Source: Neopararhizobium haloflavum (GTDB lineage Bacteria; Pseudomonadota; Alphaproteobacteria; Rhizobiales; Rhizobiaceae). Taken from it: a stretch of 64,000 nucleotides of DNA. A program made the translations under genes and the position numbers. The stretch is taken from contig NZ_NWUC01000005.1 in assembly GCF_002750855.1 (NCBI RefSeq), positions 186,001 to 250,000 on the forward strand, written 5' to 3'. The notes beneath the pieces were generated by a model. It searched no databases. It was not told the origin of the DNA and worked only from the letters and a program-made list of their open reading frames with translations. Shown piece by piece: positions 23,944 through 35,492 of the stretch. Position 1 is the first letter of the stretch, and the number at the start of each line of letters is the position of its first letter.

Positions 23944-24062
23944 ACCGCCAGCCAGCGACACCCCCGGCGGCGCCCCACTGCGGCAAAAAGCCGATGCACC
24001 GCGCCGCCGGCCTTCCTGTGCAGGACATCGCGCTCGGTGTGGGAGCCACCCTTCAAAAAAGG

Positions 24063-24113
24063 CCCCGCCCTCAGCGCAGCCCCGCCCTCAGCGCAGGCCC
24101 GTCCTCAGCGCAA
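24063..24113. repeat. 17-bp tandem repeat, three copies
   Basis: The unit CCCCGCCCTCAGCGCAG occurs at 24063-24079 and 24080-24096 exactly, and with two or three changes at 24097-24113. The third copy contains the stop codon and last codons of the acylphosphatase gene, so the repeat probably arose by duplication of that gene's end. Confidence 0.85.
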
Positions 24114-24401
24114 AATGGAAAAGCCCGCAGGCAGCCCCGCAGCACCCGCCGCGATCCGGTCGATCCGCGAAACCCGCGCACCCGGCGGCCCTTCCGCCAG
24201 CCGCGCGATCGCCGCCTCCACCGCGCCGCGCTCGCCGCCGATCAGGGCCTCGACATGCCCCTCCGGCGCATTGCGCACATGCCCGCAAAGCCCGTGCGCC
24301 AGCGCCACCTCACGCACAAACGCCCGATACCCCACCCCCTGCACCCGCCCGAAAATGGCCAGCTGAAACGCCACCGCGCCCGTCTCGAATTTCTCGCTCA
24401 T
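24105..24401 (-). CDS. acyP: acylphosphatase
   Basis: A 98-residue enzyme hydrolysing acyl phosphates. The active-site loop GRVQGVGYRAFV carries the catalytic Arg and the following GHVRN the catalytic Asn. Length is typical. ATG 24401 is preferred to an upstream in-frame start at 24437. The third copy of a 17-bp tandem repeat covers its stop codon, and a G-rich tract lies about 37 bases upstream of its start. Confidence 0.92.
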   Translation of the reverse strand: MSEKFETGAVAFQLAIFGRVQGVGYRAFVREVALAHGLCGHVRNAPEGHVEALIGGERGAVEAAIARLAEGPPGARVSRIDRIAAGAAGLPAGFSILR

Positions 24402-24437
24402 GCCAGGAAGGCTGAGGCAGATTGCTGCGCGATGCAA

Positions 24438-24455
24438 GGGTGGGGGTGGGGTGGG
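24438..24455 (+). other. G-quadruplex motif at the left edge of the Shedu island
   Basis: Four G-runs of at least three separated by single T residues (18 bases), with a further GGGGG at 24471-24475. A strong G4 candidate on the plus strand. It stands between acylphosphatase and the low-GC island; a comparable G-rich tract on the minus strand lies at the right edge (26745-26763). Confidence 0.55.
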
Positions 24456-24644
24456 CGGATTGGGGGTGGAGTGCGGACCGGCAGGTTTCGGCGGCGGTCC
24501 GAGAATTTACGGCCGTTCGTTCAGTTGCAGCACGCCAGCATTTACGTGCCCAGAAATGCAGGCAACCGATGCTTCCGCACTATTGTTTGTGGCACCGACT
24601 TTCGCGCTCGCTATTTCCCATCAGAATCCGATAAACTGACTGGC

Positions 24645-25532
24645 ATGGAGTATCCGTTAAGCAAAAAATTGGAGCGCATCTTTGAGTGCGCACAAAATCC
24701 GGTACCATATGGAATAGAACGTAGCCTGCTCCACGCCTACGTCGCCTGCCTAACATTCGAAGAACTCTGCGAGGCGATTTGCAGCACACTGGAAGCGGAC
24801 GCGCCCGTGCGACTGGCCCTTAGGGGAAGGCTGTTAAGGCTATTGCGTTTATCCGATGGCGAACTTGCGGAGCGGATTTCGCTCCTAGCCGATAAAGCGC
24901 AATCGCTCGCTGAGGGTAATCATGTCGTGCGAACGCGCGTGGACGCGCTTCTCTCCGCCGTCTATTCGTGGTTACCCCTTCCCCATCGGCATGCGGTACT
25001 CGAACATTGGATTGATCGCGGTACAAGGGGCGCCGCGAGTAGATGGCTCAAAGCCATGGCTTCCGATGAGCCGTTATTCGACGCTAAGGCAATATTCGAA
25101 TATTGGTTGGAATCGCGCAGTACGCGCGCGGCGAAGATATTAGCCTATCAGGCAGAGCCTGCTTTTTTAGACAGAAACCTCGCTGAGCTTGCAGCTGGAT
25201 GCGCGGAAGGATGGATCATCAGCAAAGCCGCTTTGCGAGCGACTTCAATACCCGATGATATCTTGCATCTTCTACGAGACAAACATCCGGCCAGCTATGC
25301 CTATCTCTGTGCGATGACGGGACGAAAGCTCACCGATGAGGAAGCGCTCGCGCTGATTTCAGACGCACCATCCAGCATCCTTGATGACGAACGGGGACTC
25401 GTGATTTGGTCCATGGGGCAAATGGGCCTGATATCTGCACTCGATCGTCTCGGCGCAAATCGAGAGACCTACGCCGCGCAAGGGGTAGCAGCCATACTAA
25501 GATCGAGGCAGGAAACGCCGGAGGCGGACTAG
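24645..25532 (+). CDS. unknown helical protein coupled to Shedu nuclease
   Basis: A 295-residue protein beginning MEYPLSKKLERIFECAQ. I recognise no family. It is rich in Leu/Ala/Glu/Arg helices, with repeated short amphipathic blocks (for example LRGRLLRLLRLSDGELAERI and DRNLAELAAGCAEGWI), suggesting a helical-repeat (HEAT-like) scaffold. No nuclease or ATPase motif is visible. Base composition is lower in GC than neighbours. It ends three bases before the Shedu start, so the two are almost surely one operon; a role as accessory or sensor is inference. ATG 24645 is used; the frame is open far upstream through non-coding sequence. Confidence 0.65.
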   Translation: MEYPLSKKLERIFECAQNPVPYGIERSLLHAYVACLTFEELCEAICSTLEADAPVRLALRGRLLRLLRLSDGELAERISLLADKAQSLAEGNHVVRTRVDALLSAVYSWLPLPHRHAVLEHWIDRGTRGAASRWLKAMASDEPLFDAKAIFEYWLESRSTRAAKILAYQAEPAFLDRNLAELAAGCAEGWIISKAALRATSIPDDILHLLRDKHPASYAYLCAMTGRKLTDEEALALISDAPSSILDDERGLVIWSMGQMGLISALDRLGANRETYAAQGVAAILRSRQETPEAD

Positions 25533-25535
25533 CTA

Positions 25536-26630
25536 GTGTCCGATGACATTGAATATCTCGCGAATTACAGGGCAAACCAGCTCTATACTCATCCTGGTAA
25601 GGCGGGTGCTTACGCTACTATAGTTGGCGAGAGCGAACAGGTCTTCGGCGAAATCGATGTCACCGGTAGATGCAAGCTGGCCGTCTCAACATTCTACGTG
25701 AGCGACAAAGCGAATTTCGGAACCCTTAAGATAACGAAGCTTCGCTTTCACAAGACATACGGATGGCAGCAAGACGGTCATATCCAAGTCAACAATTTCC
25801 AACTTGCTCAGATAAACGATTTCCTAGCGATTATATCGAACTTAGATTTCAATGATGCACAGAAAACCAGAATTTCTCTGGATAATCTGAACTTAGGCGC
25901 CCTAAATGCCCTACTGAGTAGTTCAAAGGGTGCTCAGCTAATTCACGAACTAGCCGAATCTCCCGATTTGCATCATGACATCTACGCCGTGGCCGCCAAG
26001 CGCAAGGTGTTGAGCGATTTCGAAGCCAAGCTCGGATCGGGGCTATCGGAACCTGAGTGGCAGAGTTTTTTCGAAAGCAACCCGTGGATTTTTGGGCACG
26101 GCTTGAATTACGTTTTTCTCGATAAGGCAGCGGACGCTCTCGAAAGCCGTACGACGGGAAACACCTTCGATAAGCCTGGCAAAACCGTTGACGCACTACT
26201 GCGAACTCGCGCGGAAATCAGCCAGTATGTGCTTGTCGAAATCAAGAAGGATCAAACGGCGCTGTTGCGATCGGGCAAGCCATATCGCGCTGGGTGCTGG
26301 GGTGTATCCGATGAAGTGTCTAACGCCGTGACGCAGATTCAAAAAACGGCGTTCGAATTTGGCCGTACCCGTTTCAGGGAAGCGCTCAAGAATGGTGACG
26401 GCACCGACATCGGAGAGAGCACCTACTCGATCGAGCCGCGAAGCTATTTGGTCGTTGGCAATCTGTCGGAGCTTATCGGAAATGACGATAAGATCGCTTG
26501 CTTCGAGCTCTACCGCCGAAACATTCGCGCGCCGGAAATTCTGACTTTCGACGAGTTGTTTCATCGAGCGAAGTTCATCGTCGCCAACATCAGTCGCGAA
26601 GCGATGGACGGCGCAGAGGTCTCATTCTAG
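25536..26630 (+). CDS. Shedu-type anti-phage nuclease (SduA/DUF4263)
   Basis: A 364-residue protein. The C-terminal DUF4263 nuclease is of the PD-(D/E)XK class: Glu174 in EPEWQSFFESNPWIFG, Asp219 in KTVDALLRT, and Glu235-x-Lys237 in YVLVEIKKDQ, followed by YRAGCWGVSDEVSNAVTQIQ. These are the Shedu hallmarks. The N-terminal about 150 residues are a variable domain, as is usual, and probably sense or oligomerise. It starts at GTG 25536. Lower GC than flanks indicates transfer. Established Shedu systems are single-gene; here an unknown gene is tightly coupled upstream. Confidence 0.9.
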   Translation: MSDDIEYLANYRANQLYTHPGKAGAYATIVGESEQVFGEIDVTGRCKLAVSTFYVSDKANFGTLKITKLRFHKTYGWQQDGHIQVNNFQLAQINDFLAIISNLDFNDAQKTRISLDNLNLGALNALLSSSKGAQLIHELAESPDLHHDIYAVAAKRKVLSDFEAKLGSGLSEPEWQSFFESNPWIFGHGLNYVFLDKAADALESRTTGNTFDKPGKTVDALLRTRAEISQYVLVEIKKDQTALLRSGKPYRAGCWGVSDEVSNAVTQIQKTAFEFGRTRFREALKNGDGTDIGESTYSIEPRSYLVVGNLSELIGNDDKIACFELYRRNIRAPEILTFDELFHRAKFIVANISREAMDGAEVSF

Positions 26631-26750
26631 CCGACTCGCGGCGACTTGCCTCTGCAATGCTTGGGACATGTGCCAATCTCCGGATCTGGGAAGCGGGAAA
26701 TCCGACTTGGACGTCCGAAATGGGATCGAAAGCAGCCACCGGCCACCCCC

Positions 26751-27377
26751 TCACCCACCCCCCATCCAATACCCATGAAGCGCCGCCACGTCTCCGCTCG
26801 TCAAAAATGGCATCGCCTCCTTCAGCGCTTCATCGCTCCAGTCCCACCACCGCATCGCCAGAAGCCGTTCGATGTCCGTCTCGGAAAAGCGCATGCGGAT
26901 CACCTTGGCCGGGTTGCCGCCGATGATGGCGTAGGGTGCGACGTCGCGGGTGACCAGCGCGCGGGTGCCGATCACCGCGCCGTCGCCGACGCGCACGCCC
27001 GGCATCACGATCGCCTCCGAACCGATCCACACATCGTTGCCGATGACGGTGTCGCCGGCCGGCGCATAGCCGTTCTGCGCGCCCTCAAAGGCCGGCACCT
27101 CGTTCATCCAGTAGAAGGGGAAGGTGCTGATCCAGTCGTTCCGATGGCCCTGGTTGCCGGCCATGATGAACGCCGCGCCCGAGCCGATCGAGCAGAAGCT
27201 GCCGATGATCAGCCTGTCCGCGCCCGCCTCGGGTGAGAGATAGCGCGCGCAGTCGTCGAAGCCGTGGCCATGATAATAGCCGGAATAGTAGCTGTAGCGG
27301 CCGACGACAATGTTGGGATTGCTGACCTGGCGGTCGAGCGTGATGCCCTTGAACGGGCTTTCGAAATGATTGTGCAT
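26751..27377 (-). CDS. catB: type B chloramphenicol acetyltransferase (CatB-like xenobiotic acetyltransferase)
   Basis: A 208-residue left-handed beta-helix hexapeptide-repeat acyltransferase. It begins [11 protein letters not shown] like CatB/XAT enzymes, followed by [40 protein letters not shown] (catalytic His), and [18 protein letters not shown]. Length and the C-terminal HGYW ending fit the family. It uses acetyl-CoA; chloramphenicol is the classic substrate, but chromosomal homologues may act on others. It starts at ATG 27377 and lies immediately right of the Shedu island in opposite orientation. Confidence 0.93.
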
Positions 27378-27580
27378 GAGACGTACCGGAAAATGCGTTG
27401 CCGCAGGACGGCAGAAAAGCGCGGCGGCGAAAGGCGGCGCGCGCGGGAACCTGCCGGAACGAACATTCGCGCCGACATGGCGGCACCCCGCGTTCAAAGG
27501 CGGGATGCGGGTTCAGGTGGTACAGTCTGCGGACTTCATCCCCGCACCATGGCCACGCAAGCACCGTTTGGCAACTGCCC

Positions 27581-33502: not shown

Positions 33503-35404
33503 TCAGAGTCCCCGTACGGTGTCAACGATACTGTCCAGATGACTGAAATCAACGCCTTTGGAAATCGCTATTTCAATGATAGCGGCGGCAGCTACTGGCG
33601 ATTTGCATGCTTCGCCTCCTGCAATATCAAAATTGCTGCAGACTTTCTGTTTAATATCACCATACAAATCGCCGATCTTTGCTGAAATATACTTTTCTAA
33701 ATTACCAGGGAACGCTGCGTAGTAATCACTCACGCCAGATGGAAAATCCGTTAAATTAGGTGCCCCTGCAATTGATTGAATTAATCGGTTTCTTTTCAAA
33801 GCCTGATTACGATTTTTACCTCCTTCATCAGAGTCCAATACAGGATACGCTATCATTCCAAGGCTTTTGAATGCGTATAGCGGCTTATCAATTTTTGTTT
33901 TGCCGCCAACATCGACAATCGATATTCCAAATGTATACGGATCGATATCGCGTCTCTTAAAGGCTGCTTCAAGAATTGCCTTATCGCTTGCTCCTTCGAC
34001 AATAACGATTTTGTCCGCAAAGAATCCTTCATTTATCTCCCGAGTAAATATATGAAGTCCAACAGCAAAACGGTCACGGCTCATGGGGGTAGTATCAGCA
34101 CCGATATGGGACGCCATTCCGGCGCTGAAACTCTCAATGGAAAGGCTTCGACAGGTCGTTTGCAGTTCGCCATCCAGATCGCTTTTTGAAATTAAGCGTA
34201 TGTTATCAACGTCGACTATGTTTACAAATTTTTCCGAATGTGTCGTGTAAATAATTTGAATACGAATACCGGAAATATTATTAAATCCAGTCGTTATTTC
34301 TTTAAACGCTTGATAAAATAAAAGCTGCTTTATTGGATGCTGATAAATTTCCGGCTCTTCAATTAGCAAAATTATGTCACTATACGCTTCTTCGAAGCGT
34401 CCCTCATTCTCACCACCGTCGCCGGATGTCTCCTCGGCAAGAAATTGAACCAAGGAAAAGAAGATAGCTCGCTGGAGGCCGTGACCCACGTTGCCGACCT
34501 CGACACGCAACCCTCTGTGTTGAACTGAAATAAGCGGACTAGGAAAGCTAACAGATATCTCATTTGCTTTTTGAAGGTCCGCAATTAGGTGAGTATCTGA
34601 ATAGTACCTTTGAAGTGTGTCAGTCAGACGGGAGCTAATTGAAGACAACTGAGGTATATTTTTTGGGTCGGTTATCTCGGCCAGACGAGTGTTCGACGCC
34701 TGGATAAACTCGGTGAACTCTTCTTTGTTTTCGAAGGTTTGTTTGATAATATCATTTAGCAAACTAACCACTGGACTCTTTTTGAGGTCCCCGGCCTCTT
34801 CTGATGCATCTTTAACCGCAGGAACTAATCGTACCGCCGTTTTCTTTTTCAGCTTGCCATTTGCAACGTTCATCGCGCCGAAAAAGCCACGAACTTTGTC
34901 GAACGTTAGCTGATCTTCATTTTGCGCTTCCCAGTTCTTCAATTCGGTTTCCATTTGGTCTCCAGACGCAGATGGAAGCCCAAATTGATCGCGCAAACGC
35001 GCATAGATGCTGCGCTTTTTCGTGCCATTACTTTCTTGACGAAATTCGTCGAATTCCGCCATTACATCAGTGTAAACAAAATATTCGCCCCTCTCTTGAT
35101 TCGGCCCACCGAATTCACGCGCAACCATGAGGGCGTTGTCTTTGATCGCGGACCCAAACTCCTGACGTTCGATGGGGGTCAGGCGAGTAAAAACCAGCGC
35201 GATAGAAATTGGCCGGTCTGTATCATACAAATAATGGTCTTCTTTCCTTACACGAGGAGAGCTATCAAAAAACAGATCAATTGCTTTAATTATGGTGGAT
35301 TTGCCAGCATTATTGCTTCCAACCAAGGCATTCAAATTACAAAAATCAACATCGATACTTTGTATTGATTTGTAGTTTTCAATTCTAACTCGACCTATTT
35401 GCAC
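33503..35404 (-). CDS. OLD-family nuclease (AAA ATPase plus TOPRIM)
   Basis: About 633 residues. The N-terminal ABC/SMC-like ATPase has IENYKSIQSIDVDF and Walker A GSNNAGKST (residues 29-37), and a Walker B ILLIEEPEIYQHP. The C-terminal TOPRIM nuclease has IVEGASDKAIL near 466 and VLDSDEGGKNRN near 520. This is the Overcoming-Lysogenization-Defect architecture used in anti-phage defence, related to GajA; no UvrD-like gajB is adjacent, so it resembles a single-gene (class 1) OLD. Strikingly AT-rich against its neighbours. Start is GTG 35404 (or GTG 35410) after a G-rich RBS. Confidence 0.9.
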   Translation of the reverse strand: MQIGRVRIENYKSIQSIDVDFCNLNALVGSNNAGKSTIIKAIDLFFDSSPRVRKEDHYLYDTDRPISIALVFTRLTPIERQEFGSAIKDNALMVAREFGGPNQERGEYFVYTDVMAEFDEFRQESNGTKKRSIYARLRDQFGLPSASGDQMETELKNWEAQNEDQLTFDKVRGFFGAMNVANGKLKKKTAVRLVPAVKDASEEAGDLKKSPVVSLLNDIIKQTFENKEEFTEFIQASNTRLAEITDPKNIPQLSSISSRLTDTLQRYYSDTHLIADLQKANEISVSFPSPLISVQHRGLRVEVGNVGHGLQRAIFFSLVQFLAEETSGDGGENEGRFEEAYSDIILLIEEPEIYQHPIKQLLFYQAFKEITTGFNNISGIRIQIIYTTHSEKFVNIVDVDNIRLISKSDLDGELQTTCRSLSIESFSAGMASHIGADTTPMSRDRFAVGLHIFTREINEGFFADKIVIVEGASDKAILEAAFKRRDIDPYTFGISIVDVGGKTKIDKPLYAFKSLGMIAYPVLDSDEGGKNRNQALKRNRLIQSIAGAPNLTDFPSGVSDYYAAFPGNLEKYISAKIGDLYGDIKQKVCSNFDIAGGEACKSPVAAAAIIEIAISKGVDFSHLDSIVDTVRGL

Positions 35405-35492
35405 CTTCACCCCCCTTATTGGATAGTAAAGCACTCGGTGGCTCAAAAAAGATTTCAACTATCCATCGTAACCAGCCCATTATCTACACTAG

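Follow-up and report, generated by a model that had tools for sequence, protein, structure and literature searches.

The window, by which we mean the whole 64,000-nucleotide stretch of DNA analysed here from a genome of 4.17 Mb, carries a Shedu nuclease gene (sduA) directly behind a gene for a 295-residue protein of an unnamed family, which we call the companion. Judged from sequence comparison, the two genes are a real cassette, beyond chance adjacency. In our judgement it is an even call whether they make up a two-gene, horizontally moving phage-defence cassette, in which the SduA nuclease is joined by an exchangeable alpha-solenoid accessory acting on the neighbouring nuclease.

Gene layout and the SduA nuclease

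The pair and the features around it are located as follows.

24595..24644 (+): short conserved segment ahead of the companion gene, from blastn and an alignment of upstream regions
24645..25532 (+): companion gene, 295 amino acids, predicted HEAT/ARM-like alpha-solenoid of a family without a name, from its translation, model, family searches and relatives
25520..25524 (+): GGAGG, the likely sduA ribosome-binding site, lying within the 3' end of the companion gene, from the sequence
25536..26630 (+): sduA, Shedu nuclease of 364 amino acids with conserved E172, D219, E235 and K237
24105-24437 (-): acylphosphatase gene, flanking the cassette
26751-27383 (-): hexapeptide-repeat transferase gene, flanking the cassette
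33503-35458 (-): OLD-family ATPase with TOPRIM domain (PADLOC Old 1.7e-52, Pfam PF20469)

The companion gene starts with an ATG at 24645 and stops with a TAG at 25530-25532. Three bases (CTA) separate it from the GTG of sduA at 25536 on the same strand. The GGAGG lies 11 bases ahead of this start, AGAGG is found at a near-equivalent place in Hoeflea, and the position of the motif within the end of the companion gene suggests that translation of sduA is coupled to that of the companion. Both genes are poor in GC (55% for the companion and 51% for sduA, against 63% for the window). The preliminary description had given the coordinates, the spacing and the low GC correctly. At 25530-25538, sduA stands in the reading frame of the companion, with the TAG and one sense codon between them (TAG-CTA-GTG; TAG-ATA-GTG in Hoeflea). 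This shared frame suggested read-through from the companion into sduA, which we set aside since a one-in-three frame match and the ribosome site suffice to account for it.

SduA is unambiguously a full-length, ordinary Shedu nuclease and, by its sequence, appears catalytically intact. The best match to the PADLOC SduA models (PDLC00394) had E=2.7e-91, the score against Pfam SduA_C (DUF4263 / PF14082) was 103.5 bits at a curated cut-off of 27, and the solved Bacillus cereus Shedu 8ti8 was matched at 7.6e-14; no NCBIfam model matched. The PD-(D/E)XK residues are intact, with E172, D219, E235 and K237 invariant in a 17-row homologue alignment, and E235 is aligned to the Glu mutated to Ala in the 8ti9 chain. 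The preliminary description had named the last three residues rightly and had taken E174 for the first acid, which is E172; residue 174 varies in the same alignment and is Asp in Hoeflea. The AlphaFold2 model of SduA was poor (pLDDT 63), too poor for a judgement of the N-terminal domain, and its top eight Foldseek matches were all Shedu chains (best 2.4e-09).

Three genomes of the genus were compared with the window over the interval 23944-27576. All of them keep the VOC gene and the gene from 27577 and have other genes between the two. A simple empty site for the cassette was thus rejected, and the different filling of the interval indicates a variable site rather than a clean insertion. Repeats around the cassette were weak or unrelated to its edges and gave no sign of an integration boundary, and promoter and terminator scans at the cassette stayed at chance level, with no consensus promoter. 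Just outside the cassette, at 24062-24112, a G+C-rich unit of 17 bases occurs in three tandem copies. The OLD gene at 33503-35458 is the second defence gene of the window; it lies in a region with about 43% GC and is adjoined by a gene that appears uvrB-like by eye.

The companion family and its neighbours

The companion was modelled as an all-helical protein (pLDDT 91.3), and its predicted fold is a HEAT-like alpha-solenoid. The model gave no Foldseek match at E<=0.001, and Z values in this range are common among helical repeats. The HEAT families PF13646 and PF03130 were matched by 2 and 1 of 17 companion members, with best E values of 0.03 and 0.005 that fall short of the cut-off, and the window companion matched neither. 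PADLOC and NCBIfam gave no family for it, and Pfam and PHROGs no significant match, so the earlier account of a helical partner of no recognised family stands. The profile search against the defence models of PADLOC-DB 2.0.0 gave no match, and such pairs would therefore be scored there as the effector alone. Across five companion pairs, dN/dS was 0.17-0.21, which indicates purifying selection.

Genome searches, which included the window's own genome, found the companion in 4 of 297 genomes of the window's order (one weak) and in 4/151 and 9/395 genomes of the family-level draws (one weak, one fragment). In the class-level (1/385) and phylum-level (1/359) draws the single genome was the window's own. 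Relatives were present on two plasmids and in none of the phage records. A scan with two short peptide patterns, which misses divergent relatives, gave 14 loci on genome contigs, and a pattern-based scan of viral contigs confirmed none. Two weak hits (G278/L004, E=6.9e-4; G886/L035, E=9.1e-4) were discarded as chance before counting and duplicates were merged, leaving 21 loci, several of which end at a contig edge. Sixteen come from named records and the remaining ones are the window and four genomes of its order. The named records are of genera and families that we take to be alphaproteobacterial, their class being judged by the names except for the two plasmid records. Three companions are damaged: L024 is split across two frames, L026 is truncated next to a transposase-like ORF and L040 is a C-terminal fragment.

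SduA adjoins the companion at 2 of the 21 loci, the window and Hoeflea (L013/L041), where the window copy was scanned with PADLOC and the other SduA was taken as its close homologue. An OLD/AriA-like AAA gene lies 56-64 bases upstream of the companion at two loci (L018, L012). PDC-S06 is found three bases upstream at three loci, called by PADLOC for the L019 neighbour (E=5.1e-162) and assigned by DNA homology for L022 and L023. A RecB-like UvrD helicase-nuclease precedes the companion by 111 bases at one locus (L006), and convergent AAA/SMC-like defence genes, PDC-S06-like and LmuB-like, occur at two (L014, L016). Strictly adjacent defence neighbours were thus present at 10/21 loci, or 11 if we include L024 (Roseibium), where a Ppl-like gene lies about 1 kb off on the opposite strand, with a doubtful ORF between it and the broken companion. 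The companion comes first with sduA and second with the OLD, PDC-S06 and RecB-like genes; two or three defence neighbours converge with it instead of being co-transcribed.

The other ten loci were partly scanned, with gaps at the neighbours of L026 and L040 and on one side of several others, and they hold transposases, recombinases, repABC, a possible phage gene (by eye), housekeeping genes and unknowns. With no recognised defence gene near it at these loci, the companion can persist alone. Two neighbours were left uncounted: the one at L020 (PADLOC mad3, 8.9e-28) is by eye likely an ABC-transporter ATPase, and the one at L038 is a weak ShosT match (3.5e-7). At L006 the companion stands behind a PD-(D/E)XK nuclease gene and the RecB-like helicase gene and faces a possible set of response regulator, kinase and AAA ATPase (by eye), perhaps a defence island.

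For a control we took the 39 window ORFs that are 200 amino acids or longer; one, a real OLD-type gene, matched PADLOC at E<=1e-20. This control is small and from a single window, and its rate is lowered since the mechanical ORF set probably includes some non-genes. Compared with it, defence neighbours took 11/42 slots (Fisher p=0.004) or 10/42 (p=0.007), where the 42 slots include some unscanned or past a contig end. When related loci were merged we obtained 7/34 (p=0.02) and 6/34 (p=0.045), both borderline, and same-strand neighbours alone gave 8/42 (p=0.03). An association of the companion with defence genes is, on these moderate statistics, likely but not overwhelming.

Shared inheritance and exchange of partners

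Positions 24595-26601 of the window form one blastn homology block with Hoeflea, at 82.5% identity, spanning both genes. Order, strand and the three-base spacing are the same in Hoeflea. Between the two, dS was 0.78 for the companion (95% interval 0.57-1.04) and 0.76 for sduA (0.58-1.01), and dN/dS was 0.17 and 0.06, respectively. Equal dS is expected if both genes stayed together since the window and Hoeflea copies split.

Comparable blocks were observed with other defence genes. The OLD gene and the companion of a genome of the window's order (G045) share 80.7% identity over 2793 bases with Altererythrobacter; the block ends near the edges of the pair, and the dS values of 0.89 and 0.68 have overlapping intervals. 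A block of a regulator, PDC-S06 and the companion is common to three genera. Between L019 and L023, the companion dS of 0.33 (0.25-0.44) was below the 0.51 of PDC-S06 (0.44-0.60), with intervals that barely touch, which is a misfit with strict co-inheritance.

In the tree, the window companion clusters with L013, L014, L002 and L024 (98/96). The five rows of this clade have SduA twice (the window counted), a convergent PDC-S06-like gene once, a more distant Ppl-like gene once and no recognised neighbour once. For L014 and L024, DNA homology to the window is confined to most of the companion and the 30-50 bases upstream of it. Upstream of the companion, homology begins at 24595 in Hoeflea, at 24597 in Rhizobium sophoriradicis and at 24614 in Roseibium, and this onset within 24595..24644 suggests that the stretch may hold a promoter.

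None of 27 other SduA loci in the family draw, two of them short fragments, had a companion within about 1.5 kb. Counted by genome, a companion is present in 3 of the 27 that have SduA (Fisher p 0.008-0.018), with two of the three representing one inherited cassette and the third (G800) unlinked, at 284 kb from its SduA. For this comparison the companion and SduA family draws, of 395 genomes each with the same settings, were assumed to be the same set. The closest companion-free sduA genes that we found are on Rhizobium and Agrobacterium plasmids (L007, L008). They are 70-72% identical, and their homology to the window begins at the sduA start codon. Their upstream neighbours are an AAA gene, a second, large gene and one of 78 aa; the first two proved to be IetA and IetS (AAA ATPase and S8 peptidase) in L008, which was scanned, and L007 has the same layout by annotation. 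It follows that sduA, too, swaps neighbours. The set of IetAS, the 78-aa gene and sduA is another possible multi-gene Shedu arrangement.

These counts bear on the central proposal of the preliminary description, that the partner is a functional component of a new Shedu subtype. The two-genus block and the equal dS make a functional tie plausible, but the subtype is unsupported, with SduA at 2/21 partner loci and no partner at the 27 other SduA loci. A regular linkage to SduA was contradicted by the same count, even in the nearest clade (2 of 5 rows, window included), and so was specificity for Shedu, since the family associates with various unrelated defence genes. Partner homologues that are never linked to Shedu genes were said to speak against the proposal; the linkage recurs in Hoeflea, and most loci are without SduA.

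Competing explanations and known systems

If the pair is a defence cassette with an exchangeable accessory, SduA would cut invading DNA and the companion would act on the adjoining nuclease through protein contacts. It may dock the nuclease on a cue common to several DNA-attacking systems, such as DNA ends or blocked RecBCD/AddAB repair, or it may restrain the nuclease until infection. The parts consulted of a review (PMC12904381) group Shedu, OLD, Gabija, Lamassu and Ppl as systems that sense DNA ends or monitor RecBCD. Since Shedu, OLD, Lamassu-like and Ppl-like genes are among the neighbours of the companion, a shared cue is suggested; PDC-S06, its most frequent neighbour, does not appear in those parts. 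The interaction, the direction of regulation and the cue are what we infer, and the solenoid, a generic fold, is predicted. The presence of the companion beside several other defence nucleases points to a shared immunity accessory and not a Shedu-only part. Taken to its full extent, the companion would be a general immunity plug-in, with one solenoid family on Shedu, OLD/AriA, PDC-S06 and RecB-like genes and a common trigger or self/non-self check tied to DNA ends or blocked RecBCD/AddAB repair, an extension that we hold tentatively and consider unlikely.

The main rival is a companion that works as an independent, stand-alone defence or island gene and came near SduA through the clustering and joint movement of defence genes. 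This would fit the loci without a recognised defence neighbour (10/21), the convergent neighbours at L014 and L016 and the SduA relatives that have no companion. We regard it as rather unlikely, because the block that two genera have in common stops close to the borders of the pair, the spacing is three bases with the ribosome site of sduA inside the companion gene, and similar same-strand pairing is seen with three other kinds of defence gene. Were the companion a dedicated Shedu subunit, and the pair a new two-gene subtype, the pairing, order and spacing kept in two genera and the co-occurrence by genome would follow. That relation is largely refuted as an exclusive one by the 19/21 companion loci without an adjoining SduA, the 27 companion-free SduA loci and the close SduA relatives that belong to a different operon (IetAS, scanned in L008), and we think it very improbable.

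The companion could also be an antitoxin-like restraint that spares host DNA, with lone copies as leftovers or as a shield against incoming nucleases. It is acidic (pI 5.6) and first in the operon, damaged copies exist (L024, L026, L040), and Shedu is toxic upon expression in a foreign host, according to the same parts of the review (PMC12904381). SduA has the same predicted pI of 5.6, however, its homologues manage without a companion, and the gene order is reversed with the OLD, PDC-S06 and RecB-like genes. A single inhibitor that fits several unrelated folds is also demanding, and a restraint of this kind seems improbable to us.

Should the reading as an exchangeable accessory be true, a small protein family found together with several DNA-attacking defence genes would open a direct route to the self-avoidance of Shedu and related DNA-end nucleases. 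In the consulted parts of the 2026 review, host-DNA avoidance by Shedu and related DNA-end nucleases is still an open question, and Shedu may be held back from self DNA by specificity determinants yet to be identified (PMC12904381). Other Shedu proteins have a regulatory N-terminal domain of their own, as stated in the excerpt of PMC12137116.

Compared with the solved Shedu proteins (8ti8 of Bacillus cereus, 8ps5 of E. coli), the window SduA is alike in nuclease domain and catalytic residues. In the portions of the literature consulted, Shedu counts as a single-gene system (PMC8565338) and has SduA as its sole listed gene (PMC12948488), and titles and abstract openings mention neither a multi-gene Shedu nor a shared accessory; in contrast, the window and Hoeflea have a tightly linked second gene. 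AAA-TOPRIM genes of the OLD / AriA / GajA-like kind lie directly upstream of the companion at two loci, in a shared two-gene block, whereas none touches the window pair, whose OLD gene is separate and 7 kb away. PDC-S06, a phage defence candidate in PADLOC, has the same close spacing at its three loci, but the effector differs and the order is reversed relative to the window. IetAS, upstream of the companion-free sduA relative, is unrelated to the companion. SduA is of a known kind, and the new part, which was not found in the libraries and literature searched, is the companion family and its exchange among defence genes.
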